A stretch of DNA of 49,843 nucleotides from an uncultured Gammaproteobacteria bacterium (lineage in GTDB: Bacteria > Pseudomonadota > Gammaproteobacteria > JAADHQ01). Position 1 is the first letter of the stretch. Every line of letters starts with the position of its first letter. The DNA lies in assembly GCA_947258655.1 (NCBI GenBank), contig CAMYJD010000013.1:1-49843 (forward strand). Reading direction: 5' to 3'. The notes below the pieces were generated by a model. That model saw only the letters and a list, made by a program, of their open reading frames with translations. It searched no databases and was not told the origin of the DNA. A program made the position numbers and the translations under genes. Below are positions 21,964 through 49,223 of the stretch, one piece after another.

Positions 21964-21972
21964 GGGTTTATC

Positions 21973-29000: not shown

Positions 29001-29575
29001 GGCAGACGCATGACGTCATCCGGTGGATTCATGGCCCGTTCAAACAGCGCCAGGAATGCATTCACTGGTACTGCTTTTTTTCCTTCCGGCACAGGCAGGC
29101 CGCCTTCAACAATATGGAAGACCCCTTTGGTTGTACGCCGATCACTACCGGGATTATTGAGAATCCCCTGGATCAGACGATACGACTTGACATATTGCGA
29201 TGAGAAGTCATTTCCATTCGCTGGCAGGGACAATTCCCTGGCAAGGCCGGGTCTGTCCAGTACGAAACTGGTACCTGGCAGACTGACACTCTGCTCTATT
29301 CCGTTATCCCGTAAATACTGATTAAGAAAGTCCTGAATACGTTGATCCACTGGACAGCGATAATCGGCCAGAAGTCTTTTCTGCTGACGATAATTGCGGA
29401 TCAGATCCTCTGCAATACCCAGATAGTCATTATCACTCTGATCCTGGAATATTGGTTGTTCGAGCGCGGCAAGTTGCAGATTGATGTGCTTGACCTTCTG
29501 CAGACGCTCTTCTGTTACCAGGCCCGCAAGTCCCGATGTTTCATTCATATCATTCATGTCATTCATGTCATTCAT
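26099..29575 (-). CDS. Probable PPi-type phosphoenolpyruvate carboxykinase
   Basis: 1158-residue cytosolic protein. I infer the PPi-dependent PEP carboxykinase family (described from Entamoeba and Propionibacterium, about 1150 residues), which interconverts PEP + Pi + CO2 and oxaloacetate + PPi. Support is the length, a PEPCK-like P-loop SGGGKSEISKSI near the middle, and dense conserved-looking stretches such as DNYYGYSKKEVKSQ, EEEHSGGALAYPC and SSLTGKSPSTTGAGSEGAL. I recall these as features of that family but could not align them. Context agrees: PpdK (PPi-coupled) is in the window and glgP is 67 nt upstream in the same direction. The N-terminus is a four-fold MND repeat over the start codon, with no clear ribosome site. 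Converges on gltD. Confidence 0.6.
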   Translation of the reverse strand: MNDMNDMNDMNETSGLAGLVTEERLQKVKHINLQLAALEQPIFQDQSDNDYLGIAEDLIRNYRQQKRLLADYRCPVDQRIQDFLNQYLRDNGIEQSVSLPGTSFVLDRPGLARELSLPANGNDFSSQYVKSYRLIQGILNNPGSDRRTTKGVFHIVEGGLPVPEGKKAVPVNAFLALFERAMNPPDDVMRLPFTSTQNEQARIWVSLLLRPTVSPEVPGVSAAKSLEVRFFAPGSLVSNLDFVERIFGNGGDPCLPENDAGLDIHAWTGHSGCVILAPHLLKCRARELGLPHYDQATERQRRDGMFWRNEDDLYNDGQAFKITCRDMRGVVVTIIADNYYGYSKKEVKSQTSYSANLLGGCEEEHSGGALAYPCYNLGDIFQPDARIRMDGHNYHDLLETFSDYMHVKEEGYGVDRQYPDIIYIPEDTHINLLEQTVSWERDGICHQIKLLANHTYIYPCGYKVRMEKHPRSPTWRLIGAEAEGTFCHKPCTVSGGGKSEISKSISPTIISGPLYVGDIHEDLDHVEQIFKKDYSDRFRDGELNTDSRSFLSNDRSLGSSIRLLMPSRVEYTEEYNAWLATIPQHIRALAFIIKRFYRQEWEGDWRKHFTVDVINGHPGHELKYDDRKLVMNYLRVGKDTRGSWRIYKLRQDYIGADKVQTEDDITVSTTIASTNLNNLNPDYTQNSVKLAINCEQKLFQRPDDAIHRGLDTQAEEDLSGDDTFISNFEPLEQDFAIELIEGSIDFCKFTDNMQGLIRRAAQSETGIYFVSSAHPRIVDGRPTLNVRYLQNRPDLVNARDKYIAEMGVRLYRRIPPRKPVHMPVNAILAGRRNNPGNPQKKIRPLAVYNPIHYQDLPELFMDYISSLTGKSPSTTGAGSEGALTKGPFNSLPFTADLNNALVSYILTAYDGFSSAAGYVGPECQVEHDISLLIPEIWCRIPVGQRSAAYMIDNGYLEKLDDFEYEGEQIHASRLGYRITSEFVHAYMGKIFDNPDIVFDEAMLKPETQDLEAFVDGVCNIVEAQQRVAQGYINDGSVNNACPPLKALIYIMAQGHYEGKGIDDPDIRNMFTMEYLLNSDWYQQRLLIEQQRNIRLWERHAAYVEATLSSEHGVSDSEQTALKNKRGEIEKQLQYLRSIEYLHSLQGSIGADWIDLAQQ
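29540..29575 (-). repeat. 9-bp tandem repeat spanning the start codon
   Basis: Four copies of ATGAATGAY/A read in frame as MND-MND-MND-MNE. Every copy supplies an in-frame ATG, so copy-number slippage changes only the N-terminal length and the number of candidate starts. Confidence 0.85.
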
Positions 29576-32352: not shown

Positions 32353-35300
32353 CTAGGCTGCTTGTTCTGTAAATTCGATCAGGGAGCCCAGACTGGCAGC
32401 CCTGGGTTTAACCAACCAGAACCTGTTCATATAGGAGACAAAATCATCAAGAATCGTCTCCCCCCATGCACTGTGTGTTTCTGCGACGTAAGCCGCAATG
32501 CTTTTACGCAAATAATTACGATGAGCCTCGGTATCTTCAGTATTGATCCTGTGGATATCGACCAGCTCATGGTTATAGTGATCGACAAATGTATTGTTCA
32601 TATCCAGAACAAATGCGAATCCACCTGTCATACCGGCACCAAAATTAAAACCGGTCGGGCCCAGTACAATAACCACTCCGGCAGTCATATACTCGCAACA
32701 ATGATCACCGGCGCCCTCTACAATAGCGATTGCTCCGGAGTTGCGTACGGCCAGGCGTTCCCCTGCCTTTCCCGCCGCATACAGGATTCCACCTGTGGCG
32801 CCATACAGGCAGGTATTGCCAATTATGACATTGTCCTGACTGGGAAATACAGAACAGGAAGGCGGATAGATAACCAGTTTGCCCCCCGCCATTCCCTTGC
32901 CGACATAATCATTGGCATCACCCTCAAGGTACATATGCAGACCACCACAATTCCAGACGCCGAAACTCTGGCCAGCTGTGCCGCTAAAACGCATGATCAG
33001 CGGGCTGGACTCCATACCCCTGTTGCCATGGCGTCTGGCGATCTCGCCTGACAGGCGCGCTCCGATGGAACGGTTATTATTCTGCAATGAATAGGATAGT
33101 TCAGCCCCGGATCTGTCATCAATCGCATTGCGGGCATCATCGAGCATTTTTTCCGCAAGCTCGGCCTTGTCGAAAGGGATATTGCGCGGAAAATGACAAT
33201 ACCTTGGCTTTGTTCTGTCTTTCTCTGCTTCATATAGCAATGGGCGCAAATCCAGTTTTGATTGCCTGGCTGTCTCTCCGGGGAGTATCTCGAGCAGATC
33301 GAATCTGCCGATCAGGTCTTCCATAGCGTGAACTCCCAGTCGCGCCATCCATTCGCGCGTTTCCTGTGCAATAAAACGAAAAAGACTCATGACCCTCTGC
33401 ACATCACCCTTGAAGTGATGTTTACGTAAATGTTCGTCCTGCGTGGCCACCCCGGTTGCACAATTGTTCAGATGGCAGATACGCAGGTACTTGCAACCCA
33501 TTGCAAGCAGAGGTAGCGTGCCGAATCCAAAACTTTCCGCGCCAAGGATCGCTGCCTTAACCACATCCAGCCCTGTTTTCATACCGCCATCGATCTGTAT
33601 ACGCACCTTGTCGCGCAGGTCATTCGCACGCAATGCCTGATAGGTTTCACTCAAACCCAGTTCCCACGGGCTGCCGGCATATTTAACCGAGGTCAGTGGG
33701 CTGGCGCCTGTACCTCCATCATATCCGGAAATAGTAATCAGATCCGCATAGGCCTTGGTCACCCCGGCAGCAATGGTGCCGACACCGGGTTCGGATACCA
33801 GTTTTACCGAAACAAGTGCGTCCGGATTAACCTGTTTAAGGTCAAAGATTAACTGGGCCAGATCCTCGATAGAATAGATATCATGATGTGGTGGCGGGGA
33901 AATCAGCGGTGTACCAGGCACTGCGTAGCGCAGCCTGGCAATAAGATCATTCACTTTCTTGCCGGACAATTGTCCACCCTCACCCGGCTTGGCACCCTGT
34001 GCAATCTTGATCTGGATCACATCGGCACTGACAAGATATTGCGGTGTGACACCGAAACGCCCCGAAGCTACCTGCTTGATTTTCGAATTTCTATCTGAAC
34101 CTGCGCGCTCGAAGTCCTCACCCCCTTCACCAGAATTCGAACGTCCACCCAGCCTGTTCATCGCCATGGCCAGGGTTTCATGCGCTTCCGGCGACAAGGC
34201 GCCCAATGACATCGCACCACTCTCAAAGCGCGTACAAATACTATCAACGGACTCTACCGATTCGAGCGGGACAGGGTCACGCAAGGTCCTCAATGCAAAC
34301 AGGTCGCGTATAACGGTAACCGGTCTGTCGTTGACCAGTCTCGTATAGATCTGGTAATCATCATAGCTACCGGATTCAACCGCCCTGTGAAGTGCATGTA
34401 CGACGTCCGGATTAATTGCATGATATTCACCGCCATGCATATATTTCAACAAGCCTCCCTGTGCAGCTTGCTTGCGTGGCATCCATGCCTGCTGCGCACA
34501 CTGACGTTGATCATGATCCAGATCTTCAAACCCTGCCCCACCAATACGCGAGACCGTACCCGAGAAACACAGATCAATAACATCCCGTCCAAGACCAACG
34601 GCCTCAAATAATTGCGCCCCCCGATAACTGGTTATCGTTGCAATGCCCATCTTCGACAAAATCTTGTAAAGCCCCTTGTTAATGCCCTTGCGATAGGTCT
34701 GCACTGCCTGGGTCACCTGCATGTTAGGCTCCCCCCCGTTATCGCTCATATGACAGATGCAATCATAGGCCAGATAGGGATATACCGCGGAGGCACCATA
34801 TCCAATCAATGTCGCAAAATGATGCGGGTCCCTTGCCGTCGCAGTCTCGATGACTATATTGGTATCACAGCGCAGGCCTTCATTGATCAGGCGGTGATGT
34901 ACTGCGCCCGTCGCCAGTAATGCATGGACAGGAATCTTTCCCTTTTCAATATTTCTATCGCTAAGGATTACGATCTTGACGCCATCGCGTACGATTTTGA
35001 CAACCTCATCACAAAGCTGCATGATTGCTGCGTGCAAATCCATTGACTCGGGATAGTGCAGGTCAATCGTCCCGCATCTGAAGCGAGGGTCATTGACTGC
35101 CAGCAGTTGATTGAATTTACTCGCCGACAGTACCGGGCTGTTGACGACAATGCGCACAGCATGCTCGGCATTATGCACAAACAGGTTTTGTTCATTACCG
35201 AAGCAGGTTTCAAGCGACATGATTATACTTTCACGCAATGGATCAATGGGTGGATTGGTCACCTGTGCAAACTGTTGGCGAAAATAGTCATACACACTCC

Positions 35301-36804
35301 TGCTTTTTAGTGAAAATACCGGCAAAGGTGTATCGTCACCCATTGAACCGATGGCTTCCTGCCCACCTTCTGACAATACCCTTAAGACCTGCTCCAGTTC
35401 TTCTGAGCTGAGATGAAACATTTTCCGGCACTCTGCCAGGCGCTCGGGTTTCATTGCCACATTACACGCCTTCTCTTCCTGTAATGAAGATTCCAGGTAA
35501 GTGACATGGTCCTTGAGCCATTGCCTGTACGGGAACCTGCTTTTTAATTCATTGTCGATATGTTCCGGCAACAGTAACTCACCATTAAGAGTGTCGACCG
35601 CAAGCATATCACCCGGACGCAGGCGTCCCTTCTGCTGTACGTCAACAGCTTCGTAATCATAAACACCGACTTCAGATGCAAGGGTTATATGCCGGTCTTT
35701 GGTAATGACATAACGTGCGGGGCGCAAGCCGTTACGATCCATAACGCAGGCTGCATAGCGCCCATCAGTGAGGACAATCCCGGCTGGTCCATCCCATGGC
35801 TCCATATGCATGGAATAATATTCATGAAAGGCTCGCAAGTCAGGGTCCATCGAGTCAATATTCTGCCATGCCCTCGGTATCAACAGGCGCATGGCAAGAA
35901 AAATATCCATACCACCTGCAAGCATGGCTTCAAGCATATTATCCAGACTGTAGGAATCCGATCCGGACATGGATACCCATGGCCTGATATCTTCCATATT
36001 GGCAATCAGCTCCGAGTCAAACTTATAGCTTCTCGCCTGCGCCCAGTTACGGTTTCCCTGTATAGTATTGATTTCACCATTATGTGCCAGGTAGCGGAAG
36101 GGTTGTGCCAGACGCCATTCAGGCCAGGTATTGGTTGAAAAACGCTGATGAAAAATGCACAGTGAAGATGCCAGCCTGGTATCATTCAGATCCTGATAAA
36201 ACAGAGGCAGATTATGTGCCAGCACCAGGCCTTTATAACAAACTACACGTGCCGACAGTGTGACCACATGAAAGGCATCGTCCTTGGTTACGATCTGCTT
36301 TTTAGCACGTCGTCTGGCAATATACAGGTTGCGTTCAAACTGATCTTCCTTCAACTCAGCGGGCGCATTGACAAAGACCTGCTCGATTACGGGTAAGATA
36401 GAGAGTGCCTGTGGTCCGCATACCTCCGGATTGACTGGCACTGATCGCCAGCCAGCCACGTCCAGTCCCTCGGCCTTCAGTTCGGTTTCCAGGCGATGGC
36501 GTGCCCGCGCAGCCAACTCGTCGTCGGCATTCAGAAACACCATACCAACGGCGTACATATTAGCCAGCGCCAGGCCTTGTTCATCGCACACAGCACGAAA
36601 AAAGGCATCCGGCTTTTTCATCAGAATGCCACAACCGTCACCACTCTTGCCATCAGCAGCAACGGCACCCCTATGGGTCAGTCGTGTCAGGGATTTTATT
36701 GCCGTGTGTACCAGTGAATGACTGGCAATACCATCCATATGCGCAATCAACCCGAATCCGCAATTATCCCTGTCCAGATTTTTATCGTATAACGATGGCA
36801 TCAT
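32353..36804 (-). CDS. gltB: Glutamate synthase large subunit
   Basis: 1483 residues, normal family length. N-terminal Ntn amidotransferase: the catalytic Cys15 ([13 protein letters not shown]) is exposed after removal of a 14-residue propeptide. The central domain and the FMN barrel follow, with [20 protein letters not shown] and [15 protein letters not shown], and the 3Fe-4S loop [15 protein letters not shown]. The C-terminal beta-helix (GAxGG-type repeats, e.g. [10 protein letters not shown]) is complete. It makes glutamate from glutamine and 2-oxoglutarate with GltD. Lies 52 nt downstream of the alpha-E gene in the same direction, an unusual partner, and probably depends on the sigma-54 promoter at 39453-39468. 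Confidence 0.97.
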
Positions 36805-36856: not shown

Positions 36857-37852
36857 CTAGGCAGCAAATTCACTCTTGTCTTCCTCGTCTGCAGATTTTT
36901 CCTCGGAGTCCTGCGTCAGTCTCTCGGCAACAAAATAGGTCGTCGACATCTGATCATGCACCTGCCCCAGCATGATTTGCAGATTATTCATATATTCAGA
37001 CATCCTCGCATTTTCCATGTCTTTAACATCGGCATCGAATACCTGCCGTTGTACACGCCCCAGTGTACGCAGACATGCTTCGTTATCCTGCAGGGTACGC
37101 AGACTGTGTTCCACCTCGTTGATGCAATGACCAACCGCATGCGGGAACTGCCTGTCCTGCAACAGATAACCCAGCACAGCCTCTCCCCTTACCCGCACAT
37201 GCACATGGCGCCGGTACATCTGATAGGCTGCCAGTGACTCGAGGATACTTTTCCACTGGATATCATCAAAGGGCTTCAGATCATCGGCCAGTTTGGGTAA
37301 CAGATTACTGGCACGCACCTCAAGTACACGCGTGGTCATGTCGGCGCGCTCCAGGTTTCTGCCCAGACGTATGAACTCATAGGTCTGATCATGACTCATC
37401 GTTCCGCTCATATTGCCGCTGATCAGCTGGCAGCTTCTGATAACATGCATCAGGTATTCATAGCGACCTTTGCGCGACATGCCCTTGGCCTTGTTTTTTT
37501 CGGTATACATATGCAGGTCATTCAGAATCTCCCATACACCGCGCGGCACTATGGCACGCGATGTCCTCAGGTTTCCCCTGGCATATTCGACTGTATTGAG
37601 TATCGATCCGGGATTGAATTTGTCCGATAACAGGAATTTTACGACATTGCGCTCATTCAGCTCAGTGTAATGCTCGTAAAACAGGTCGGAAGAACCGGTA
37701 ATCGCCAGTATTGGCTCCCAACCGGGTGAAATACCCTTAGGCAAATCGAGCAGGAGATTGGCGTTGACCATAACGATACGAGCGGTATTCTCCGCACGTT
37801 CTACATAGCGCGCCATCCAGTAAAGTGTTTCTGCTATCCTGGATAAAATCAT
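36857..37852 (-). CDS. Alpha-E domain protein (DUF403)
   Basis: 331-residue all-helical protein of the alpha-E family (COG2307), starting ILSRIAETLYWMARYVERAENTARIV, the family signature. Biochemical function is unknown; comparative genomics ties it to circularly permuted ATP-grasp ligases and transglutaminase-fold proteins in predicted peptide-forming or peptide-modifying systems. AAGGAGG overlaps the stop codon of the upstream ATP-grasp gene, so the pair is tightly coupled. It matches the C-terminal half of the fusion protein at 42213-44804, making this locus a split paralogue. gltB follows by 52 nt. Confidence 0.9.
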   Translation of the reverse strand: MILSRIAETLYWMARYVERAENTARIVMVNANLLLDLPKGISPGWEPILAITGSSDLFYEHYTELNERNVVKFLLSDKFNPGSILNTVEYARGNLRTSRAIVPRGVWEILNDLHMYTEKNKAKGMSRKGRYEYLMHVIRSCQLISGNMSGTMSHDQTYEFIRLGRNLERADMTTRVLEVRASNLLPKLADDLKPFDDIQWKSILESLAAYQMYRRHVHVRVRGEAVLGYLLQDRQFPHAVGHCINEVEHSLRTLQDNEACLRTLGRVQRQVFDADVKDMENARMSEYMNNLQIMLGQVHDQMSTTYFVAERLTQDSEEKSADEEDKSEFAA

Positions 37853-37866
37853 TTAAATGATCCTCC

Positions 37867-39306
37867 TTATTCAACAATCCACGTATCTTTACTACCACCA
37901 CCCTGGGATGAATTAACGACCAGCGACCCTTTTTTCAGTGCCACACGAGTCAAGCCACCCCGGGTTACATAACTGCTTTCACCCGATAATATAAATGGAC
38001 GCAGATCCAGGTGGCGGGGCTCGAGTTTGCCATCACAAAGCGTAGGTGCGGTCGACAGACTCAACGTGGGCTGGGCAATATAGTTTCTGGGTTTCTTTTT
38101 AATCAGCGCGGCGAACTGCTCCTGTTCCTTTTTTGTGGAATTGGGGCCAATTAACATACCATAGCCGCCGGATTCATTGGCCGGCTTGACCACAAGCTTG
38201 TCCAGGTTCTCCAGTACATACTGTCGGTCCTGCTCATCCATGCACAGATATGTCGGAACATTTGGCAGGATAACCTTTTCCCCCAGGTAGTAGTCAATCA
38301 TCTTTGGCACAAAGGCATACACAACCTTATCATCTGCAACGCCCGCCCCCGGGGCATTCGCGATGGCCACCGTGCCTTTGCTCCAGGCACGCATAATGCC
38401 GGGGACACCGAGCGCTGATTCCGGCTCGAATACCTCGGGATCCAGGAACAGGTCATCGACGCGTCGATAAATCACATCCACCTGCTTCAGGCCCTCGATG
38501 GTGCGCATATATACGCAATCATCTTCAGACACTACCAGGTCAGAGCCTTCGACCAGTTCAACACCCATTTGCTGGGCCAGATAGGAATGTTCGAAATAGG
38601 CCGAGTTATAGATACCCGGCGTCAGAACAACAATGGTCGGATAATCAGCAGGACGTGGTGACATCGAGGCAAGCATGTCAAACAACTGGCTGGGATAATC
38701 GTCTACCGGCTGAATATTGTAGTCTTCGAACAACTCCGGAAATATCCGTTTGATGACCATCCTGTTTTCCATCATGTAGGAAACACCCGACGGCACACGC
38801 AAGTTGTCTTCGAGTACATACATGGTACCGTCACTGTCGCGTACCAAATCACTGCCACATATATGCGCCCATACACCCAGGGGCGGATCGATACCGACAC
38901 ACTGCTTGCGAAAATTGGCCGAGTCGGCGAGAACTTCCTTTGGAAAAATATTGTCCTTGATGATGTTCTGGTCATGATAGATATCATCGATAAAACAGTT
39001 TAGTGCCTTGACGCGTTGCTTCAATCCGGCCTCGATACGTTTCCATTCATGGGCCGAGATCACACGCGGGATAATATCGAAAGGCCAGGTCCTGTCGATA
39101 CCAGTACCTTCCGAATAGACCGTAAAGGTAATCCCCATGACATGCATGGCCAGCTCGGCAGCATTGTTTCTGTCCTGCAATTCATTTTCACGCAGGGATG
39201 ACAGGTACTTGCATATCAAATGCGCAGCCTTACGCGGCCTACCCGTTGAACCGATCAGTTCATCGTAAAATTCGTTCGCCTTGTACTCTTTCCATTTGAT
39301 CCGCAT
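37867..39306 (-). CDS. Circularly permuted ATP-grasp protein (COG2308)
   Basis: 479-residue predicted ATP-dependent carboxylate-amine ligase. Hallmarks are VLEDNLRVPSGVSYMMENR, VVLTPGIYNSAYFEHSYLAQ, DVIYRRVDDLFLDPE, GTVAIANAPGAGVADDK and a glycine-rich ATP loop LVVKPANESGGYGMLIGP. A free-standing enzyme of this type would join an amino group to a carboxylate, possibly on a peptide; the substrate is unknown. ATG 39306 has AGGA upstream and is preferred to the 39330 start. Followed directly by its alpha-E partner, then gltB. Preceded by a near-perfect sigma-54 promoter and an NtrC-like dyad. Confidence 0.9.
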   Translation of the reverse strand: MRIKWKEYKANEFYDELIGSTGRPRKAAHLICKYLSSLRENELQDRNNAAELAMHVMGITFTVYSEGTGIDRTWPFDIIPRVISAHEWKRIEAGLKQRVKALNCFIDDIYHDQNIIKDNIFPKEVLADSANFRKQCVGIDPPLGVWAHICGSDLVRDSDGTMYVLEDNLRVPSGVSYMMENRMVIKRIFPELFEDYNIQPVDDYPSQLFDMLASMSPRPADYPTIVVLTPGIYNSAYFEHSYLAQQMGVELVEGSDLVVSEDDCVYMRTIEGLKQVDVIYRRVDDLFLDPEVFEPESALGVPGIMRAWSKGTVAIANAPGAGVADDKVVYAFVPKMIDYYLGEKVILPNVPTYLCMDEQDRQYVLENLDKLVVKPANESGGYGMLIGPNSTKKEQEQFAALIKKKPRNYIAQPTLSLSTAPTLCDGKLEPRHLDLRPFILSGESSYVTRGGLTRVALKKGSLVVNSSQGGGSKDTWIVE

Positions 39307-39452
39307 TGATATTGATCCTGACCACACCATGCTTGCCGGCTATAAGCCAACAAATCCGGGTATAAATTTGTCTTTGGGCAGTGAAGACTGACAGTATCAG
39401 TTACACAGTAAACACTGGCATTTTATGTAAACCTTGCTCTGTTACAGATAAA

Positions 39453-39468
39453 TGCAATGACTATGCCA
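39453..39468 (-). promoter_or_regulatory. Sigma-54 promoter of ATP-grasp/alpha-E/gltB operon
   Basis: Minus-strand TGGCATAGTCATTGCA has a single mismatch to the consensus. Predicted start near 39443 gives a leader of about 137 nt. Confidence 0.72.
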
Positions 39469-39531
39469 CGCTATTATTATCACCAGGTTTTGTCTCTATG
39501 AAATATGGCCAATACTCCCTATGTTTTCACG

Positions 39532-39548
39532 CGCACGCATACGGTGCA
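39532..39548. promoter_or_regulatory. NtrC-like dyad for the ATP-grasp operon
   Basis: CGCACGCATACGGTGCA matches TGCAC-N7-GTGCA at nine of ten positions. Its centre is about 97 bp upstream of the predicted start. Confidence 0.55.
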
Positions 39549-39763
39549 TCAGGCTGCGCCTGCTTGCTGCGCGGTATACGCTCGAAAATACCTGGAAAAA
39601 TAAGAATAATTACAGTATTTCAGTGAGTTAAAAAAATCACTGCTACTAAATCTGGCAACCGCTTGTTATACACCGATGCAGTATCAATCTGTTTACGCTA
39701 GCAACGACTGCTACAGGTATGTCGGGCAAAATTGACGCGCATGTCATATCAATTTAAAAAGAA

Positions 39764-39811
39764 TGTCATTCCATAGTGCATTAAAGAAGACTTATGTATC
39801 CAATATAGTGC
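39764..39811 (+). promoter_or_regulatory. Tandem NtrC-like half-sites upstream of HPPD-like gene
   Basis: ATAGTGCA (39773-39780) and ATAGTGCG (39805-39812) are 32 bp apart, three helical turns. The first belongs to a 7-of-10 dyad, TGTCA-N7-GTGCA. They lie about 160 and 125 bp upstream of the predicted start. Confidence 0.35.
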
Positions 39812-39907
39812 GTTGGAATGTTTTCGACCAGTCTCTGCCACGGCAATCTGAACAAAATAAAGCATATTCCCATACATTTATGCATTAATATCCAGAAACA
39901 AGCAGTA

Positions 39908-39923
39908 TGGCCTGAATCTTGCT
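39908..39923 (+). promoter_or_regulatory. Sigma-54 promoter candidate of HPPD-like gene
   Basis: TGGCCTGAATCTTGCT has two mismatches in the -24 half, with GG/GC spacing correct and a perfect TTGCT. Predicted start near 39934, about 30 nt before the ATG. Confidence 0.5.
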
Positions 39924-39964
39924 GCAAGATAGCTATAAAAAAGTGTTAGGAGTGAATGTTCTAG

Positions 39965-41215
39965 ATGACAAATTCATTGAATTTTGCACGTCACGGGGAT
40001 AAGCAAAACTCCCCGTTCTTTGAAGAATACCTGCAGCGTCTGCTCGAGGAACGTGACCGTATCGGCCTGACCGACATGATCTATGAAATCGACGCCATTA
40101 TGCTGACTGTCGATCCTGGTCATTCCATTGAATATATTGGTGAATTATGTTTGATGACGCCGTATCACTACCTGGTGACACTGGAAAGTGAATCACACTG
40201 GACGCATGTTCTGCGCATTGATCCGCTGTTCCCGGACCTGCTGGTGCGCGAAGTCAAGGACCCGAAGATCCAGGGCATCTTCCGCAGTCTGAACGAAGTC
40301 TATCCTATCGGTGCACGCAAACCCAACAGTCGTTATATGGGCGAGATCCTGCGGGTAAGTGACCTGCATGGTGTGGTCGAACTGCAGAAGGAACGCGAGT
40401 TCCGTTTTTTTAGCCAGGACCAGATCCGTAAAATGGAACTGCCCGGTAACCTGGCCGTCGGCAAGCCATCCCCCTACACGCATAATGTTGTCTCGTATAT
40501 GGAGCGTCACCCTGAACAACTGCGCGTCTACGCACTCGGTATCAGCGCTATTCGCAACGATGTCCAGGATGTCTACCTGGCCGCAAAGGAAGAACAGAAG
40601 GCGCGTCAGATCGATGACCTGATATACCCGATTGACCATCTGGCCACGCGTATATACAGTCAGAACCGCGAAGTCGCCATCCTCGAATGGTTGTCACTAT
40701 CCAGTTACTACTATTGGGGCTCCTACGATATCAAGAACCAGAATTCATCGACGAATGTGACCAAGAATGTCCATTTCAGTGAGGAGGTGCGTAGTCCGGT
40801 CAAGGTTTTCACGGCCAACAACACACCCTATTTTGTTAACCACCTGGAAAAATTGCCATCACCGACGGAAACATTCGTGCGCAATTACGGCCCGCGTCTG
40901 CATCATGTTGCCCTGGCCGTGAAAGACGGGGAACGCAATAACATGGAAAACATCGAATACGTTGTCGACCAGATCAAACAGGCAGGCAAGGACTTTCTTC
41001 TCGACGTCATCGGTTCGAAGGAAGAGGGCCTGAAACAGATATTCTCCAATGCGTCAGATCATTCTTCGCTGATTATCGAATACGTTCAGCGCTTTGGCGA
41101 GTTTGACGGCTTTTTTACCAAACAGAATGTTGCTGAATTGACCCACGCTGCCGGTGTTGCCGATGAATTACTGGAGTTACAGGCAGAATCCATGGAGAGC
41201 GATGCGAGCGAGTGA
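39965..41215 (+). CDS. VOC-superfamily protein with HPPD-like C-terminal domain
   Basis: 416 residues. From about residue 218 it follows the 4-hydroxyphenylpyruvate dioxygenase metal domain: IDHLATRI (His225), then SPTETFVRNYGPRLHHVALAV (His314), then LKQIF...SLIIEYVQRFGEFDGFF (Glu372), a complete 2-His-1-Glu iron site in the right order and spacing. The first about 215 residues do not look like the N-terminal VOC half of HPPD; I do not recognise them. The C-terminus is acidic and lacks the HPPD gating helix I would expect. AGGAG lies 12 nt before the ATG. It is flanked by the two ATP-grasp/alpha-E loci and carries a sigma-54-like promoter, so it may act on the same unknown product. Tyrosine catabolism is less likely: no hmg or fah genes are near. 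Confidence 0.8.
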   Translation: MTNSLNFARHGDKQNSPFFEEYLQRLLEERDRIGLTDMIYEIDAIMLTVDPGHSIEYIGELCLMTPYHYLVTLESESHWTHVLRIDPLFPDLLVREVKDPKIQGIFRSLNEVYPIGARKPNSRYMGEILRVSDLHGVVELQKEREFRFFSQDQIRKMELPGNLAVGKPSPYTHNVVSYMERHPEQLRVYALGISAIRNDVQDVYLAAKEEQKARQIDDLIYPIDHLATRIYSQNREVAILEWLSLSSYYYWGSYDIKNQNSSTNVTKNVHFSEEVRSPVKVFTANNTPYFVNHLEKLPSPTETFVRNYGPRLHHVALAVKDGERNNMENIEYVVDQIKQAGKDFLLDVIGSKEEGLKQIFSNASDHSSLIIEYVQRFGEFDGFFTKQNVAELTHAAGVADELLELQAESMESDASE

Positions 41216-41322
41216 TTCGAATACCCGGATCGTGGTGAAATCGATATAACAGCCCCTCATGCGATAACCAGCGCATGGGCAGGCTGCTGTGTTCATGTCG
41301 CTGTGTTAAGGATTATTGCTGC

Positions 41323-42216
41323 CTACAAACCATCAGACTCCAGCGCCTCGACATCAACAGATACACACAGCTTGTGTGTCTTGCCACCACCAAAGATCAC
41401 GCCTTTAAGCGGCGTCACATCGCCATAATCCCTGCCCCAGGCTGTAGTAATATGGCGTTCCATCGGGATCTGATTATTGGTCGGGTCGAAATCGACCCAG
41501 CCAAAATCGGGTACATACACAGAAAACCAGGCATGCGATGCATCTGCACCTTCGAGGCGTTTCTGCCCCGGCGGTGGAATGGTTTCCAGGTAACCACTGA
41601 TGTAGCGGGCCGGAATACCATGTGAAATCAGACAGGATATGGCCAGATGGGCAAAATCCTGACATACACCCTTGCGCTTTTTGAACACCTCCCTGAGAGG
41701 TGTTGCTATGGTCGTCGTATGCGGATCATAGTCAAAGTCGTTATGAATGCGATCCATCAGATCATGCACGGCCTCAAGCACCGGACGGCCGGGTGTGAAT
41801 GAAGCCTGGGCATATTTGTGCAGATTCTCATCGAGACTGATAAAGGGCGATTCCAGCAAATATTGCCTGGCATCGAGGTCCTCGCTGCGTGTACTGTTGC
41901 GCAAGATGTCATTGACTTCATCCCACGGAACCGGAAAGGCCATATCCAGCAAATTACCCAGCGGCTTGATTTCTATCTCACTCACTGCCGTTACAGTCAG
42001 CATCTGATGGGGCGTATGCACAGAAAAAAAGCACGCCCTGTTGCCGAAGAAATCATCCCTTTCGACAATCCTGGTCGCATAGGGATCCACATCAATCGTG
42101 GAACTAAAACAAACCTGGCGATGACTACTGCGTGGGAACAGATGCGCAAGATTGTAACAGGACGAGACTGATTTACTGTAGGTATAATGCGTAACATGGG
42201 TGACCCGGTATTTCAT
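41323..42216 (-). CDS. Transglutaminase-like cysteine protein
   Basis: 297 residues: an N-terminal beta-rich transglutaminase-associated domain (YRVTHVTHYTYSKSV) and a transglutaminase-core papain-like fold with catalytic Cys185 (KGVCQDFAH), His228 (DASHAWFSVYVP) and Asp244 (VDFDPTNN). Bacterial members are predicted peptidases or amide-exchange enzymes. The start overlaps the stop of the fused ATP-grasp/alpha-E gene by four bases (ATGA), with AGGGGGT upstream. Last gene of the three-gene operon; converges with the HPPD-like gene. Confidence 0.93.
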   Translation of the reverse strand: MKYRVTHVTHYTYSKSVSSCYNLAHLFPRSSHRQVCFSSTIDVDPYATRIVERDDFFGNRACFFSVHTPHQMLTVTAVSEIEIKPLGNLLDMAFPVPWDEVNDILRNSTRSEDLDARQYLLESPFISLDENLHKYAQASFTPGRPVLEAVHDLMDRIHNDFDYDPHTTTIATPLREVFKKRKGVCQDFAHLAISCLISHGIPARYISGYLETIPPPGQKRLEGADASHAWFSVYVPDFGWVDFDPTNNQIPMERHITTAWGRDYGDVTPLKGVIFGGGKTHKLCVSVDVEALESDGL

Positions 42217-44804
42217 TCCATACCCCCTGGTCGTGTAGGCACCAACTGCTGTATCTGCTCATCCTTGCGGAAGTAAGTCGTTGTCATGACATTGCTCAAT
42301 TCAAGCAACTGTTGCTGAATATGGTCCATGACACGGTCCATTTTAACGCGGATGGAGGCATCCGTGCCGATTTCAGCAAGATCAGATGCATCCGCTAAGC
42401 GCAATTGTGTCAGCAACTCGAGGACCAGCCTCTCCTCTGCAGACAATTGCTGACGACTGCGATCCACCGGCAAATAGCCAGCATGTGTCTGAATACGCGC
42501 CAGCTGATAACCGACTGAACGTGGATTGGTCTCATTCAGCAGAACCACATCAAGGAATTCAGGGATCTCGAAACCGAGGAGGAAATTGCGTTTATAGGTC
42601 ATAAGGCTGTCGAGAATGCTCAGCATCGACTCCAGCAGTACACTTTCGTCGTCCGGCTGTGCAGGATAAACGAGGGCAGAGCGTATCAGTGTTGTAGTAT
42701 GTACCGCCCTTTCAATCCTTCTGCCGATTTCCAGAAAGCGCCAACCCTGTTCATGAGTCATATTCTCGTTAATCAGGCCACTCAGGCTCATCAATGCTGT
42801 GATCAGGTTGTCGAGTTCATCATCGGCATCATTCAAGTGCTGTAAATTGCCCTGCTGGAGACCACTCAGTTCCATATCGATATCATTTATGACGCGCAAG
42901 GTATCCGTCGACAGACGGTCACGGACGCTGCGTGCAGCTACGAGCAAGGCAATCAGTGTTTGCGACAGGCTCCCCTGGCGGTTGTGATCCACGATCACTG
43001 ACAACAATTCCTCCTCGGGAGATGCGAGACGAAGCTCGGCATCTTCACCTACAAAACCTGGATACAGTTTCGTCGTATGGGTCACTACGCGCAATAACTG
43101 GTTGAGAACGAAATTGGACTGTCTACCCGATGCCAGAACCTGGGAGCTGTCTGCGAGGTATAGCTGCACAACACGTAACAGACGCACGAGCCCCTCGGCG
43201 CGTTCTGCATAACGACCCAGCCAGAACAAATTGTCGGCAACACGGCTGGGCACATCCCCACCAAGGGGTCTTTTGTGCATAACATGGGGAGACGACACGA
43301 TCAGCGTGTCCTGTTTTTCCGGTTCTGACGCCAGCACCCAGGTGTCCTTGCTGGCACCGCCCTGCTGACTGGACACCATAAAATTTTCACGTTTGTCGGA
43401 CACACGAGTCAGCGCCCCCGGCATGACAACATAGCTTTGATCACGCGAGACCAGGTAGCTGCGCACGACAACATGACGTGAATCCAGTTCGGCATTGCGT
43501 GCCAGCACCGGCGCTGCAGACAAGATCACCTGTGACTGCGCGACAAACATATGCGGCCTGGTTTCGATTTGTCTGATCAGGGCCTTGCGCTCGGTGTCAG
43601 CAAGCTTTGACGCAAACACCGTACGCTGCTTGTTTACTGGAACAAACGGCTTGATGACGAGCTTGTCCAGATTCGCCAACACATAGCGCCTGTGCTCTGC
43701 ATTGCCGCACCACCAGGTCCCGGCATTGGGAATACGTAAATCCTCACCGAGGAAATACTGCGCCAGCTGTGGCATGAACGCCATCAATCCAGGGTTCTGC
43801 AGAACACCGCTACCGAGGGGATTGGCAATGGCGACATTACCATCCCTGACCACCTGCAACAGCCCGGGTACGCCCAGATAGGAATCCTCGCGCAGTTCAA
43901 GCGGATCGCAGTACTCATCATCCACGCGCCGTAATATGACATCCACTTGCTGCAACTTGTCCAGGGTCTTGAGCCAGACGCGGCCGTCACGTACGGTCAG
44001 GTCATCGCCCTGGACCAGGGTATAACCGAGATAATTGGCCAGATAGGCATGTTCGAAGTAACTCTCATTGCCCACACCCGGTGACAACAGCACAATTCTC
44101 GGCTCGGCGTCTGGGTATGCGGCAAGTGAATTCAGGCTGGAGCGCATGGCGCGGAAAAAAGGTGCCAGGCGATGTACATGAGAGTCACGGAACAGGCTCG
44201 GCATTACGCGCGACATGACAATACGGTTTTCCAGTGCATATCCGGCACCCGATGGCGCCTGGGTACGGTCGGCAAGCACCTGGAATCTACCATCAGGACC
44301 ACGGGCAAGGTCGGCGGCATACAGATGCAAATAACGACCATCGCTGTTTTCGATACCGGCACAGGGACGCAGATAGGACGGAAAGGAATATACCAGTTCC
44401 GGCGGCAGTATCCCTTTCTCGATCAGCCTGCGTGGGCCGTACAGATCAGCCAGCACCAGATTCAGCAACTCTGCGCGCTGAATCAGTCCCGCCTCGATAA
44501 CACTCCATTCCTCACTTCCAATCAGCAGCGGGATCATGTCCAGATCCCATGGACGCCCTATCCCTTGTGGATCATTGTAGATGTTATAGGTGACATCGTT
44601 ATCACGAATCAGGCGCCTGGCTTCACGATAACGGCGTACCAGTTCGTCCTTGCCCATCGCATCCAGAGAACGCCCGAAATACTCCCAATGCGGACGCAAT
44701 TGCCCCGGTCCGGTGCACATTTCATTGTGAATATCATCAACAAAAGCGCAACTTCCGCATAATGTGTTGCCGTCCATGCTGGCCGTTGCATTCGGATCTG
44801 ACAT
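42213..44804 (-). CDS. Fused circularly permuted ATP-grasp and alpha-E protein
   Basis: 863 residues. N-terminal half (about 1-500) is COG2308 ATP-grasp: YALENRIVMSRVMPSLF, VLLSPGVGNESYFEHAYLAN, DVILRRVDDEYCDPLE, GNVAIANPLGSGVLQNP. C-terminal half (about 525-850) is alpha-E: PSRVADNLFWLGRYAERAEG. It corresponds to the separate genes at 37867 and 36857. The glycine-rich SGGYG loop of the split paralogue is replaced here by PFVPVNKQRTVFAS after the ATP-binding lysine (LVIKPF), so nucleotide use may differ or be lost. No strong ribosome site. Lies 48 nt after the DUF2126 gene and overlaps the following transglutaminase gene by 4 nt. Confidence 0.92.
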   Translation of the reverse strand: MSDPNATASMDGNTLCGSCAFVDDIHNEMCTGPGQLRPHWEYFGRSLDAMGKDELVRRYREARRLIRDNDVTYNIYNDPQGIGRPWDLDMIPLLIGSEEWSVIEAGLIQRAELLNLVLADLYGPRRLIEKGILPPELVYSFPSYLRPCAGIENSDGRYLHLYAADLARGPDGRFQVLADRTQAPSGAGYALENRIVMSRVMPSLFRDSHVHRLAPFFRAMRSSLNSLAAYPDAEPRIVLLSPGVGNESYFEHAYLANYLGYTLVQGDDLTVRDGRVWLKTLDKLQQVDVILRRVDDEYCDPLELREDSYLGVPGLLQVVRDGNVAIANPLGSGVLQNPGLMAFMPQLAQYFLGEDLRIPNAGTWWCGNAEHRRYVLANLDKLVIKPFVPVNKQRTVFASKLADTERKALIRQIETRPHMFVAQSQVILSAAPVLARNAELDSRHVVVRSYLVSRDQSYVVMPGALTRVSDKRENFMVSSQQGGASKDTWVLASEPEKQDTLIVSSPHVMHKRPLGGDVPSRVADNLFWLGRYAERAEGLVRLLRVVQLYLADSSQVLASGRQSNFVLNQLLRVVTHTTKLYPGFVGEDAELRLASPEEELLSVIVDHNRQGSLSQTLIALLVAARSVRDRLSTDTLRVINDIDMELSGLQQGNLQHLNDADDELDNLITALMSLSGLINENMTHEQGWRFLEIGRRIERAVHTTTLIRSALVYPAQPDDESVLLESMLSILDSLMTYKRNFLLGFEIPEFLDVVLLNETNPRSVGYQLARIQTHAGYLPVDRSRQQLSAEERLVLELLTQLRLADASDLAEIGTDASIRVKMDRVMDHIQQQLLELSNVMTTTYFRKDEQIQQLVPTRPGGME

Positions 44805-44852
44805 AGAATTACCGATCAGGCTCTAAAACCATATATTTTAAGTGTATAAATT

Positions 44853-47800
44853 CTATTTACACGTAGGATAATAGCGTAAATCCAGGGTATAAGGATAGTC
44901 TGGATTGCGCTCTTCATCGACTGGGGTCAGATCTCCAGGGCTATGCCCGTAAGGCCAGAAGCGTGCAATACGCCGCGATTCGGCTACATCGGCATTGACA
45001 GGGAATGTCTCATAATGGCGGCCGCCGGCATGTGAGACATGATAGGTACAGCCACCAATGGAACGTTGATTCCATGTATCCACCAGATCAAATACCAGTG
45101 GTGCCTGCACCGGAATGGAAGGATGCAGGCCTGATGGCGGTGACCAGGCCTTGTAACGTACACCCGCAACGAATTCACCGCGGGTACCGGTTGGATGCAG
45201 CGGGACCTTGCGACCATTGCAGGTCACCATGTGCCTGCTGTCCGTCATCCCGCGGACCTTGACCTGGAGCCTCTCCACCGAGGAATCCACATAACGCGCC
45301 GTTCCCTGCGATGTCACTTCCTCGCCCAATACATGCCAGGGTTCGATGGCCCAGCGCAATTCCAGCTCGATGCCCTGATTGTCGATCCTGCCATAATGCG
45401 GGAAACGGAATTCAAGGAAAGGGGCAAACCATTCCTGTTTTAACGCGAAGCCAGCCCGTTGCATATCACATATTACATCCTTGAAATCTTCCCAGACATA
45501 ATGAGGGAGCATGAAGCGATCATGCAGTTCGGTGTTCCAGCGCACCGGCTTGCGTGTATAGGGTTGTTCCCAGAAACGCGCGATCAATGCCCTCAGTAAT
45601 AACATCTGCACCGAACTCATGCGCGCATGCGGTGGCATCTCAAAGGCGCGGAATTCGACCAGCCCCAGGCGACCGGTACTGGATTCGGGGGAATACAGTT
45701 TATCGATACAAAACTCGGAGCGGTGTGTATTACCGGTGACATCGATCAGCAGGTTGCGCAACAAACGGTCTACCAGCCATGGTGATGGTACTTCGCCTTC
45801 GGGCATTTGCTGAAAGGCAATTTCCAGTTCATACAGACTGTCATCGCGGGCCTCATCTACGCGTGGTGCCTGACTGGTTGGACCGAGAAACAACCCGGAA
45901 AACAGATAGGAAAGACTGGGATGATTCTGCCAGTAGGTAATCAGGCTACGCAACAGATCGGGGCGCCTGAGAATCGGACTATCTGCCGGCGTAGCCCCGC
46001 CAATGGTTACATGGTTACCCCCACCGGTACCGGAATGGCGGCCATCGAGCATGAATTTTTCTGTACCCAGACGTTCAAAATGCGCCTCTTCATAAAGTGC
46101 CGCCGTTGTCTGCACGATCTCGTCCCATGAATGCGCCGGATGAATATTCACTTCAATGACACCCGGGTCCGGGGTAACCGCCAGCCGCAACAGACGCGGA
46201 TCCTTTGGAGGCTCGTAACCTTCGAGTAATACCGGCATGTTCAATTCAGCGGCCGTCGCCTCAATAGAGGTCACCAGGTCCAGGTAATGCTCGAGGTGCG
46301 AGACGGGCGGCATAAACACATAGAGCTTGCCATCACGGGATTCAATACACAGCGCGGTATGGATAGCTTCGCCACTCCAGTCAGGCTCATCCACAGCGCC
46401 GGGCTGTTCGACGTCTGGTGTTGGCGCGGGTGGTATCAACTGGTCGTAACGTCGCGCCACTTCGCCCATGATATCGCCAAGCGGTGAACGCGGTTCGAAG
46501 GTGCAACGCTGCAATAGCCGATCGCGATGTTCTTCCGCGACCCAGGGCAATGAGCGCAAGGGCAGGCGATAACCCATCGGCGAATCGCCCGGAATCAGAA
46601 ACATATGCTCGCGCCGGAACTGCCACAGATTACTCTGCCACTTTCCGCCGGCCGACAGATCATTCCATTTAATCGGCAAGGTATAACCGACAATCTCGTC
46701 TATACCCTGCTCGAACAGCCGCAGCAGGCGCTTGCGTTCCAGCGGGTCTTTGAGTTTACTGTCCAACGGATCCACGTTATCCGGTAAAGTCCCTTCCTTC
46801 CATAAATAGTACACGACATCTTCGTACCCCGGGACTATCGTGCTCGTATCCAGACCGAGGTAACGTGTCAGAGTGGTAATAAAACGTCTAGCATCGTCGC
46901 GATCATATCCGTAATCTTTCTTTTCATCGGCAACGAGGTCCTCATGTTGCCATACCGGCAAACCATCGGCACGCCAGTAACAATTCAGGCACCAGCGCGG
47001 CAGCGGTTCACCCGGATACCACTTGCCCTGCGCATAGTGCAAAAAGCCTCCTGTCGCAAAACGATAACGCAGACGCTTGACGAGATCCCCGGCCATGTTA
47101 CGTTTGTCCGGACCCATGGCGGTGATATTCCACTCAGCACCATCCATGTCATCCACGGAGACAAAGGTCGGCTCGCCACCCATGGTCAGACGCACATCAT
47201 TATCCTGCAGTGACCTGTCTACCACATGACCCAGTTGCATGATTTCCTGCCATTGATCCTCACTGTAGGGTTTGGTTACACGAGGGTCTTCATGGATGCG
47301 TTGGATCTCATTATGAAAATAAAATTTGACCTCAGCCTTGTCTGAGCCGCCGGTAATAGGGGCAGCACTGACAGGATCCGGTGTACAGGCGAGAGGGATA
47401 TGACCTTCGCCCGCAAACAGACCCGAAGTCGGGTCCAGCCCTACCCAACCGGCACCGGGTATATAGACCTCCGTCCAGGCATGCAGATCGGTAAAATCCT
47501 TTTCCGTACCGGATGGCCCATCCAGTGCCTTGACATCGGGCTTTAACTGCACCAGATAGCCGGACACAAAACGCGCCGCCAGCCCCATATGGCGCAGAAT
47601 CTGCACCAGTAGCCAGCCGCTGTCACGACATGAACCGGTCGCTTTCTGCAGCGTCTCCTCACAGCTCTGAATTCCCGTCTCCATACGAATGTTGTAACCA
47701 ATATCCTTCTGCAATTGTTGATTCAGGTCGACCAGATAATAGACAATGTGTTCCTTGTCTGTGTTGAAATCCTTGAGCCATTGCTTCAATAATGGACCAT

Positions 47801-48167
47801 CCTCCTTGATCTCCCGATAGGGAATCAACTCCTTTCTCAGCTGCTCATCATATTCAAACGGGTAGTTTTCAGCATAATTCTCGACAAAGAAGTCAAACGG
47901 ATTAATCACCGTCATCTCGGCGACCAGGTCCACCTCCACCTTGAATGTACGCGTCTTTTCCAGAAACACCAGTCGAGCCAGATAGTTTCCGAAAGGATCC
48001 TGCTGCCAGTTGATAAAATGCTTGCCGGGATCCACCTTCAATGAATAGGAATGAATCGGCGTGCGGCAATGCGGCGCCGGGCGAAGACGCAGGATATGCG
48101 GTGACAAGCTGACCAGGCGATCATAGCTGTATTCGGTCTTATGATTGATTGCAACTCGTATGGCCAT
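44853..48167 (-). CDS. Transglutaminase/DUF2126 large protein
   Basis: 1104 residues. The N-terminal transglutaminase-like part (1-280) has the intact triad Cys180 (GSCRDSGW), His229 (DLHAWTEVY) and Asp245 (VGLDPTSG). The rest is the DUF2126 region (COG4196), with MGGEPTFVSVDDMDG, HTGG-like GGNHVTIGG, EVNIHPAHSW and TEKFMLDGRHSGTGGGNH, features resembling a glutamine-synthetase/ATP-grasp type amidoligase core. Predicted partner of the ATP-grasp/alpha-E protein in making or trimming an unknown peptide or amide. AAAGGA precedes the ATG. First gene of the operon, with a sigma-54-like promoter and an NtrC-like site upstream. Confidence 0.9.
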   Translation of the reverse strand: MAIRVAINHKTEYSYDRLVSLSPHILRLRPAPHCRTPIHSYSLKVDPGKHFINWQQDPFGNYLARLVFLEKTRTFKVEVDLVAEMTVINPFDFFVENYAENYPFEYDEQLRKELIPYREIKEDGPLLKQWLKDFNTDKEHIVYYLVDLNQQLQKDIGYNIRMETGIQSCEETLQKATGSCRDSGWLLVQILRHMGLAARFVSGYLVQLKPDVKALDGPSGTEKDFTDLHAWTEVYIPGAGWVGLDPTSGLFAGEGHIPLACTPDPVSAAPITGGSDKAEVKFYFHNEIQRIHEDPRVTKPYSEDQWQEIMQLGHVVDRSLQDNDVRLTMGGEPTFVSVDDMDGAEWNITAMGPDKRNMAGDLVKRLRYRFATGGFLHYAQGKWYPGEPLPRWCLNCYWRADGLPVWQHEDLVADEKKDYGYDRDDARRFITTLTRYLGLDTSTIVPGYEDVVYYLWKEGTLPDNVDPLDSKLKDPLERKRLLRLFEQGIDEIVGYTLPIKWNDLSAGGKWQSNLWQFRREHMFLIPGDSPMGYRLPLRSLPWVAEEHRDRLLQRCTFEPRSPLGDIMGEVARRYDQLIPPAPTPDVEQPGAVDEPDWSGEAIHTALCIESRDGKLYVFMPPVSHLEHYLDLVTSIEATAAELNMPVLLEGYEPPKDPRLLRLAVTPDPGVIEVNIHPAHSWDEIVQTTAALYEEAHFERLGTEKFMLDGRHSGTGGGNHVTIGGATPADSPILRRPDLLRSLITYWQNHPSLSYLFSGLFLGPTSQAPRVDEARDDSLYELEIAFQQMPEGEVPSPWLVDRLLRNLLIDVTGNTHRSEFCIDKLYSPESSTGRLGLVEFRAFEMPPHARMSSVQMLLLRALIARFWEQPYTRKPVRWNTELHDRFMLPHYVWEDFKDVICDMQRAGFALKQEWFAPFLEFRFPHYGRIDNQGIELELRWAIEPWHVLGEEVTSQGTARYVDSSVERLQVKVRGMTDSRHMVTCNGRKVPLHPTGTRGEFVAGVRYKAWSPPSGLHPSIPVQAPLVFDLVDTWNQRSIGGCTYHVSHAGGRHYETFPVNADVAESRRIARFWPYGHSPGDLTPVDEERNPDYPYTLDLRYYPTCK

Positions 48168-48337: not shown

Positions 48338-48353
48338 TGCATAAAATATGCCA
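48338..48353 (-). promoter_or_regulatory. Sigma-54 promoter candidate of DUF2126 operon
   Basis: Minus-strand TGGCATATTTTATGCA has two mismatches to the consensus, with GG/GC spacing correct. Predicted start near 48328, leader about 160 nt. Confidence 0.55.
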
Positions 48354-48446: not shown

Positions 48447-48463
48447 AGTACCAATAAGGTGCA
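48447..48463. promoter_or_regulatory. NtrC-like dyad for DUF2126 operon
   Basis: AGTACCAATAAGGTGCA matches 8 of 10 dyad positions and, from memory, is close overall to the strong E. coli glnA site. Centre about 127 bp upstream of the predicted minus-strand start; it could also serve the P-II promoter about 300 bp away. Confidence 0.45.
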
Positions 48464-48727: not shown

Positions 48728-48743
48728 TGGCATGTTAGTTGCA
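48728..48743 (+). promoter_or_regulatory. Sigma-54 promoter of the P-II gene
   Basis: TGGCATGTTAGTTGCA has one mismatch to the consensus. Predicted start near 48754, leader about 130 nt. Sigma-54 control is usual for glnK-type genes. Confidence 0.75.
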
Positions 48744-48884: not shown

Positions 48885-49223
48885 ATGAAGATCATATCGG
48901 CTATCATCAAGCCTGAAAAACTTGGTGACGTAACCAACGCCATAAGAGAGATCGGCACAGCGGGCATCACGTTAACCGAGGTCAAGGGATATGGCAGACA
49001 GAAAGGTCATACCGAACTATACCGCGGCGCAGAATACGACATCCACTATATCCCAAAAATTAAAATCGATGTTGCTGTGATTGACGACATGGTGACACAG
49101 ATTACCGAGGCAATCCTTGCCAGTGCCAAAAGTGGCAAGATTGGCGACGGCAAGATCTTTGTCAGCGATCTGGAGGAAATAGTGAGAATCCGCACAGGGG
49201 ATTATGGTGCTATGGCATTATAG
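48885..49223 (+). CDS. glnK: Nitrogen regulatory protein P-II (GlnB/GlnK family)
   Basis: 112-residue trimeric sensor of ATP/ADP and 2-oxoglutarate. T-loop LYRGAEYDIHYIPKIK retains Tyr51, the uridylylation site, and Tyr46. The B-loop ASAKSGKIGDGKIFV and C-loop RIRTGDYGAMAL are intact. GlnK is chosen over GlnB because of the sigma-54 promoter, but no amtB follows, so the symbol is tentative. GGAGGAA precedes the ATG. The DYGAMAL end differs from the usual TDEDAL/E.GEDAL, which may mark a lineage-specific paralogue. Divergent from the DUF2126 operon. Confidence 0.93.
   Translation: MKIISAIIKPEKLGDVTNAIREIGTAGITLTEVKGYGRQKGHTELYRGAEYDIHYIPKIKIDVAVIDDMVTQITEAILASAKSGKIGDGKIFVSDLEEIVRIRTGDYGAMAL

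Follow-up and report, generated by a model that had tools for sequence, protein, structure and literature searches.

An HPPD-fold protein as an apparent component of a predicted nitrogen-starvation amidoligase system in an uncultured Gammaproteobacteria bacterium

The DNA analysed here (the window, 49,843 nucleotides; contig CAMYJD010000013.1 of assembly GCA_947258655.1) belongs to a 3.48-Mb genome of an uncultured Gammaproteobacteria bacterium, and record titles likewise place its nearest named relatives in the Gammaproteobacteria. Six genes of the window encode a split ATP-grasp ligase, its Alpha-E partner, a fusion of an ATP-grasp and an Alpha-E domain, two transglutaminase-fold proteins, one of them with DUF2126, and a 416-residue protein that resembles 4-hydroxyphenylpyruvate dioxygenase (HPPD). 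We consider it probable that this locus is an NtrC/sigma54-controlled nitrogen-starvation amidoligase system enlarged by an HPPD-fold enzyme, and that this enzyme genuinely belongs to the system in the lineages that have it. The enzyme set itself is a known predicted amidoligase system, often accompanied by Anbu. A preliminary description of this DNA had given the positions of the six genes correctly, and Pfam confirms the domains it assigned to five of them. The genes and putative promoter elements are as follows.

36857..37852, minus strand: Alpha-E protein of 331 residues, partner of the split ATP-grasp (PF04168, E 3.1e-85)
37867..39306, minus strand: split circularly permuted (CP) ATP-grasp ligase with intact motifs EDN, ADDK and SGGYG (PF14403, E 8e-171)
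39454..39468, minus strand: perfect sigma54 -24/-12 site TGGCATAGTCATTGC 5' of the ATP-grasp gene (sigma54 motif match)
39532..39548, strand unassigned: NtrC-like dyad with 2 mismatches (dyad motif match)
39797..39811, minus strand: NtrC-like site GCACTATATTGGATA with 3 mismatches and one good half (motif match)
39908..39922, plus strand: sigma54-like site with 1 mismatch, starting 57 nt 5' of the dioxygenase-like gene
39965..41215, plus strand: HPPD-fold protein of 416 residues, candidate Fe(II) dioxygenase (predicted structure and alignment)
41323..42216, minus strand: transglutaminase-fold protein with the triad C185/H228/D244 (PF08379, PF01841)
42213..44804, minus strand: fusion of a degenerate CP ATP-grasp, a probable pseudo-ligase, with Alpha-E (PF14403, E 3e-154; PF04168, E 2e-71)
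44853..48167, minus strand: transglutaminase domain (C180/H229/D245) followed by DUF2126 (residues 276-1098), a predicted glutamine-synthetase-like ligase (Pfam, E 0)
48339..48353, minus strand: sigma54-like site with 1 mismatch, 5' of the DUF2126 operon
48447..48463, strand unassigned: NtrC-like dyad with 2 mismatches (dyad motif match)

The genes for the DUF2126-transglutaminase, the ATP-grasp–Alpha-E fusion and the small transglutaminase, the latter two overlapping by 4 bp, likely form one minus-strand operon. A second minus-strand operon consists of the split ATP-grasp and Alpha-E genes; gltB lies on the same strand, 52 bp beyond Alpha-E. The gene of the 416-residue protein lies between the two operons and is transcribed away from the ATP-grasp gene and towards the transglutaminase gene. 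The frame of the split ATP-grasp is open up to 39330; the nearest relative aligns from residue 9, which corresponds to 39306, the start given in the preliminary description. The whole genome has two Alpha-E matches, the split and the fused one, both at this locus.

A scan of named genomes yielded 313 stretches encoding a relative of the 416-residue protein, the best 80 of which were kept as named loci, from Methylophilaceae, Methylococcaceae, Ectothiorhodospiraceae, Zetaproteobacteria and others; the methylotrophs Methylophilus methylotrophus and Methylobacter tundripaludum are among the carriers. Seventeen relatives from 16 other genomes share 65-89% identity with the protein, at a mean column identity of 79%. 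Neither Pfam nor NCBIfam matches the protein at E 0.001, Pfam giving only a spurious hit at E 0.14; over 38 aligned rows, the best sub-threshold matches were Glyoxalase_4 (E 0.017; 16/38) and 4HPPD (E 0.031; 2/38). Likewise, TIGR01263 (HPPD) does not match it at 1e-3 and matches nothing else in its own genome. This 38-row alignment holds the window protein and 37 of the 80 named loci; L106 and L124 were removed because of stops, and 41 others were left out. In it, H225, H314, Q358 and E372 are invariant. We predicted the structure from these 38 sequences with AlphaFold2 (predicted local distance difference test, pLDDT, 68.4; predicted template modelling score 0.73). Searching the model against PDB with Foldseek revealed that all 50 listed rows are HPPD, hydroxymandelate synthase or HPPD-domain fusions, with a best E of 3.6e-9. 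The same holds for the 50 rows listed by VIA, where human HPPD aligns over 301 residues with a Z of 16.8, a root-mean-square deviation (rmsd) of 4.1 and 12% identity. In HPPD, two His and one Glu are the iron ligands and a further Gln lies in the QIF motif. A local hhalign alignment to a profile of ten HPPD proteins, with 29% identity across 146 columns, places H225, H314 and E372 on these ligands and Q358 on that Gln; the global mode returned no alignment. At the level of the model, the protein holds as a two-domain vicinal oxygen chelate (VOC) fold of the HPPD type and is a candidate Fe(II) dioxygenase with a predicted His-His-Glu iron site, so that the VOC protein with an HPPD-type iron site proposed beforehand stands at that level. 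In a few genomes, the HPPD-like genes are broken by stops or frameshifts (L124, L106, G156 and G206), perhaps through recent loss or assembly errors. In a sister genome (G043), the HPPD-like gene is present twice, once arranged as in the window and once beside ATP-grasp, Alpha-E and Anbu genes.

The HPPD-like gene accompanies the ligase system both in genome content and in position. Of 274 sampled genomes of the class, 22 carry it and 78 carry Alpha-E, which is present in all 22 carriers (hypergeometric P 9e-14, treating the genomes as independent); DUF2126 is present in 18 of the 22 compared with 49 of the 274 overall. Among these carriers, G264 has only a 40-residue fragment, G156 and G206 have broken copies, and the copy of G048 is cut by contig ends. 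In a phylum sample of 398 genomes, the HPPD-like gene was found in seven and Alpha-E in 212, including all seven carriers; the class, named-genome and phylum sets share some genomes. For 58 of the 80 named loci, genes of the system were found within the flanks that were fetched. Lack of a conserved neighbourhood in relatives had been set beforehand as one outcome that would refute the interpretation; it was not observed, 41 of the 54 loci that have 5 kb or more to either side being linked. After clustering at 85% identity, which took in 75 of the 80 loci, 14 of 19 clusters are linked. The 13 well-flanked loci that are unlinked, together with the many carriers that are methylotrophs or sulfur or iron oxidisers as judged by record titles, would suit another explanation, in which the HPPD-like protein acts on its own in the metabolism of autotrophs and methylotrophs and has only a nitrogen-stress regulon and some neighbours in common with the system. 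We regard this as rather unlikely: no genome checked has the HPPD-like gene without Alpha-E, the 13 unlinked loci all have Alpha-E elsewhere in the genome, and linkage occurs in many gene orders (34 distinct strings among the 58 linked loci, some of them due to contig ends). By linkage, co-occurrence and the shared promoters described below, we assign the HPPD-like enzyme to the ligase system, in keeping with the preliminary grouping; in its lineages, it looks like an unrecognised component.

Promoter motifs were counted in the window and compared across relatives. In the window, sigma54-like sites with at most 2 mismatches are near chance (138 compared with 117.6 expected; 3 of 100 shuffles reach 138), and NtrC-like sites number 8 compared with 1.4 expected by one pattern and 13 compared with 8.8 by another. 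As evidence by themselves, the sigma54 counts of the window were rejected for being near chance; the weight of the promoters comes from the comparison across relatives. For this comparison, a -24/-12 match of at least 9/10 was required and only upstream regions of 140 bp or more were counted, as was also the case for the clusters and dyads. Such sigma54 matches precede 26 of 34 ATP-grasp, 25 of 61 HPPD-like and 14 of 29 DUF2126 genes, whereas among the remaining genes of these loci only 19 of 538 have one. When each cluster is represented by a single locus, the counts are 8/12, 7/18 and 2/9, respectively, versus 3/160 for the others. NtrC-like dyads, allowing up to two mismatches, precede 25/56 HPPD-like and 16/33 ATP-grasp genes, an enrichment over the 35/457 seen for other genes. 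The -24/-12 promoter motif expected of an NtrC/sigma54 regulon is thus conserved in relatives. In other species, nitrogen control of related genes has been published: the Burkholderia cenocepacia cluster I35_5080-5083 is NtrC-controlled and 6- to 9.4-fold down in an ntrC mutant, according to the relevant part of PMC5491218; in the Pseudomonas putida core system, three of the four genes are clearly up in each listed column of PMC7801951 and PP_2685 in one; and a passage of PMC8050072 also describes NtrC or nitrogen control of that system. Motif enrichment here and these published regulons make nitrogen control of the locus likely, as had been suspected from its promoters. Elsewhere in the window, an NtrC-like box with 2 mismatches (17226-17240) lies just 5' of a Na+-translocating NQR operon (17311-23193, plus strand), and further NtrC-like boxes are found at 10966 and 14548.

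The preliminary description regarded the split and fused genes as the same pair in two forms. Both gene sets are indeed present; their sameness does not hold. We built a tree of the ATP-grasp domains of 38 split and 28 fused proteins, the window's own included, after dropping two ATP-grasp and two fusion frames outside the length limits. A single branch with a support of 100/100 parts the two groups. EDN, ADDK and SGGYG are present in all 38 split proteins. In contrast, E174, N176 and K335 are absent from 28 of 28 fusions and the Gly-rich loop is intact in none, so the fusion lacks the catalytic ATP-grasp set (ExN, Lys and Gly-rich loop) that the split gene retains; in ATP-grasp enzymes, ExN is a Mg ligand. 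The tree and the lost ATP site rule out alternative forms of one pair, and, judged from the sequences, split and fused genes are two old paralogous families. Given the loss of the Mg/ATP motifs in every fusion, the fusion is probably a pseudo-ligase. It nevertheless keeps R289, R290, D292, D293, R444 and a C-terminal KDTW and has been maintained over long times, as might be expected of a working ligase with an unusual ATP site, the two pairs then making two products. We think this improbable, since E174, N176, K335 and the SGGYG loop, invariant in the 38 split proteins, are gone from all 28 fusions. The retained residues rather seem to reflect selection for something besides standard ATP chemistry.

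The two transglutaminase-fold proteins of the fusion operon, one with DUF2126, had been recognised earlier and are confirmed by Pfam. The Cys-His-Asp triad is conserved in both: among relatives of the small protein, Cys is found in 42/44, His in 43/44 and Asp in 44/44, and the large DUF2126-fused protein has all three residues in 36/36. The DUF2126 domain was modelled (pLDDT 68.7), its alignment comprising 29 of 35 named domains. All 50 rows listed by VIA are glutamine synthetases or their homologues (Z up to 14.5, 265 residues aligned, rmsd 3.9). DUF2126 therefore models as a glutamine-synthetase-like ligase, predicted to be the second ligase of the system, in agreement with its Pfam annotation as a putative amidoligase. 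It also agrees with the system that Iyer et al. reportedly predicted in 2009, composed of a CP ATP-grasp, Alpha-E, a transglutaminase and a CP glutamine-synthetase-like amidoligase. The window thus has an ATP-grasp with intact motifs, an adjacent Alpha-E, a transglutaminase with its triad and, by its model, a glutamine-synthetase-like DUF2126; with all these families present, the earlier assignment to predicted amidoligase/peptide systems is supported. On a second contig of the same genome (L158:5431-8548), a 289-residue transglutaminase-fold protein is encoded divergently from a short DUF2126 protein of 708 residues, short forms of which occur in four other genomes. One locus of another genome (L159, genome G163) has three tandem DUF2126 proteins of 709, 1118 and 1168 residues.

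Several observations weigh against an HPPD-fold enzyme working within a nitrogen-controlled ligase system. The model of the 416-residue protein is middling, with pLDDT below 50 at residues 106-123, 285-313 and 342-416, the last including Q358 and E372; the hhalign support is weak (E 0.0019, probability 14.5%); and biochemistry for the HPPD-like protein was not found in the open-licence literature searched. Foldseek alone finds DUF2126 weakly similar to glutamine synthetase (best such row E 0.064), a score that would suit a permuted fold; its top row, with a TM-score below 0.1, was discarded as spurious. The P values are too small, the genomes and loci being related. Linkage is absent in 13 of the 54 well-flanked loci, and the split pair is nearby in only 8 of 20 loci extended from the class sample, some of whose contigs are short. 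Moreover, 56 of the 78 class genomes with Alpha-E have no HPPD-like gene, and the dioxygenase is therefore not needed for the core system. No sigma54 enrichment is seen at the operon-internal genes for the fusion (0/11), the small transglutaminase (0/10) and Alpha-E (0/8) or at Anbu (2/21), nor are NtrC-like dyads enriched at DUF2126 promoters (3/28). Finally, sigma54 matches at HPPD-like genes depend on arrangement: 11 of 16 genes divergent from ATP-grasp have one, compared with 9 of 39 linked otherwise and 5 of 17 unlinked.

The observed gene content, paralogy, motif loss, model-level folds, co-occurrence, linkage and promoter motifs enable us to propose a putative working of the locus, in which we infer the regulation here, the catalysis, the partners and the order of steps. 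Under nitrogen shortage, NtrC and sigma54 would turn on two ligases that differ in fold, the transglutaminases, Alpha-E, the pseudo-ligase and the iron dioxygenase. The split ATP-grasp and the glutamine-synthetase-like DUF2126 would each activate a carboxylate with ATP and join an amine to it. The transglutaminase-fold proteins, putatively two cysteine hydrolases or transferases, may cleave or transfer such amide bonds through their transglutaminase-fold domains, as may Anbu where present, with Alpha-E as a helical partner. The fusion, its fold presumably kept and its ATP chemistry gone, could serve as a scaffold or regulator, and the HPPD-like enzyme would act with Fe(II) and O2 on a building block that is an alpha-keto acid. 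Most likely, the locus encodes a nitrogen-starvation pathway in which amide bonds are both formed and cleaved and which includes an iron-dependent oxidation step. The presence of two carboxylate-activating enzymes together with an alpha-keto-acid oxygenase suggests that a small amide or peptide containing an oxidised unit is assembled; that the product derives from glutamate, as suggested previously, is not supported by this analysis. We further offer, as a speculative extension that may well prove wrong, that methylotrophs and chemolithotrophs have a branch of the system marked by an HPPD-fold Fe(II) dioxygenase as an obligate member. The product of this branch, made when nitrogen is scarce, would be an oxidised amide or short peptide, a metabolite and not a tag on proteins, and the dead ATP-grasp–Alpha-E fusion would control the live ligases.

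Protein tagging is the competing view of the product. The ligases would tag proteins for turnover under nitrogen starvation, transglutaminase-fold proteases or Anbu would remove the tag, and the HPPD-like enzyme would make or modify it. Such a role is a published hypothesis for the Anbu operon in a passage of PMC6376114, and PMC5666114, in a corresponding passage, describes that operon as a peptide-synthesis system and invokes protein turnover. Anbu is found in 21 of the 80 HPPD-like loci, and the one copy checked matches solved Anbu structures in PDB. The same passage of PMC6376114 (2017), however, reports that Anbu showed neither peptidase nor amidase activity and that the proteins of the operon did not interact specifically; an alpha-keto-acid dioxygenase would be better suited to a small molecule than to a protein tag; and Anbu was not found in the window, where no match is better than E 0.06, so that the locus is not an Anbu operon in the narrow sense. 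In the rest of the genome, PF00227 finds one gene, by eye HslV beside HslU. We rejected PF00227 as an Anbu detector because it also missed an Anbu control, and the absence of Anbu outside the window is therefore not established. On balance, tagging appears to us a possible but doubtful account, and we favour a pathway with a small-molecule product.

The flanking genes were considered as further members of the system.

32353..36804, minus strand: gltB (NF008730, 2513.7 bits), context
48728..48742, plus strand: perfect sigma54 site 5' of the P-II gene, context
48885..49223, plus strand: P-II nitrogen regulator gene (PF00543), context

The split pair runs into gltB here, as had been pointed out, but this is no general feature: gltB lies in the flanks of one of the 80 named loci, in the sister genome (L048), and a P-II gene in none. 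Among the loci examined, adjacency to gltB is limited to the window's genus and adjacency to P-II to the window, and both genes were rejected as members. A 1158-residue protein (26099-29575, minus strand) has no Pfam or NCBIfam match; it was rejected as a part of the system, being a pyrophosphate-dependent phosphoenolpyruvate carboxykinase by PDB match (8e1u, 6k31). Genes for this carboxykinase also lie beside system or HPPD-like genes in L060, L066, L107 and L038, and occur in 7 of the 22 HPPD-like genomes versus 24 of the 274 overall. A defence system was rejected, PADLOC giving no match for the six proteins.

The amidoligase system is known. In the open-licence papers searched, we found no mention of an HPPD-like member or of the fusion being a pseudo-ligase. 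Among the literature matches listed, no title or beginning of an abstract links a dioxygenase or VOC protein to Anbu or Alpha-E. Alpha-E, the mark of the system, is present in 212 of the 398 phylum genomes, yet the published accounts consulted name no product for it. The HPPD-like enzyme ties a well-understood chemical class to the system by presence, place and promoter; it points to chemistry on an alpha-keto acid or on the oxidised product of one and offers a direct assay, through O2 and CO2. The likely pseudo-ligase nature of the fusion tells which copy to test for activity. Furthermore, the family of the 416-residue protein has no Pfam or NCBIfam model despite 313 stretches encoding a relative in one genome collection.

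In comparison with known proteins, the 416-residue protein is, by alignment, like HPPD and hydroxymandelate synthase in its fold, its iron ligands (two His, one Glu) and the QIF-motif Gln, but differs from them in its structural identity of about 12%, the missing TIGR01263 match and its gene context. For the split ATP-grasp, the only solved relative found by sequence is 3n6x (E 4e-164), whose name, "putative glutathionylspermidine synthase", is the depositor's label. The B. cenocepacia cluster I35_5080-5083, known here from its description alone, is presented without mention of an HPPD-like gene in the relevant part of PMC5491218; as described there, it resembles the locus in having DUF404/407, DUF403, a transglutaminase and a large transglutaminase-like protein. 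Relative to the predicted amidoligase system, including the Anbu operon, the window differs in the added HPPD-fold protein, in Anbu not being in the window, and in the adjoining gltB and P-II genes; it shares with that system, as described in passages of PMC6376114 and PMC5666114, all core families and the control by nitrogen starvation.

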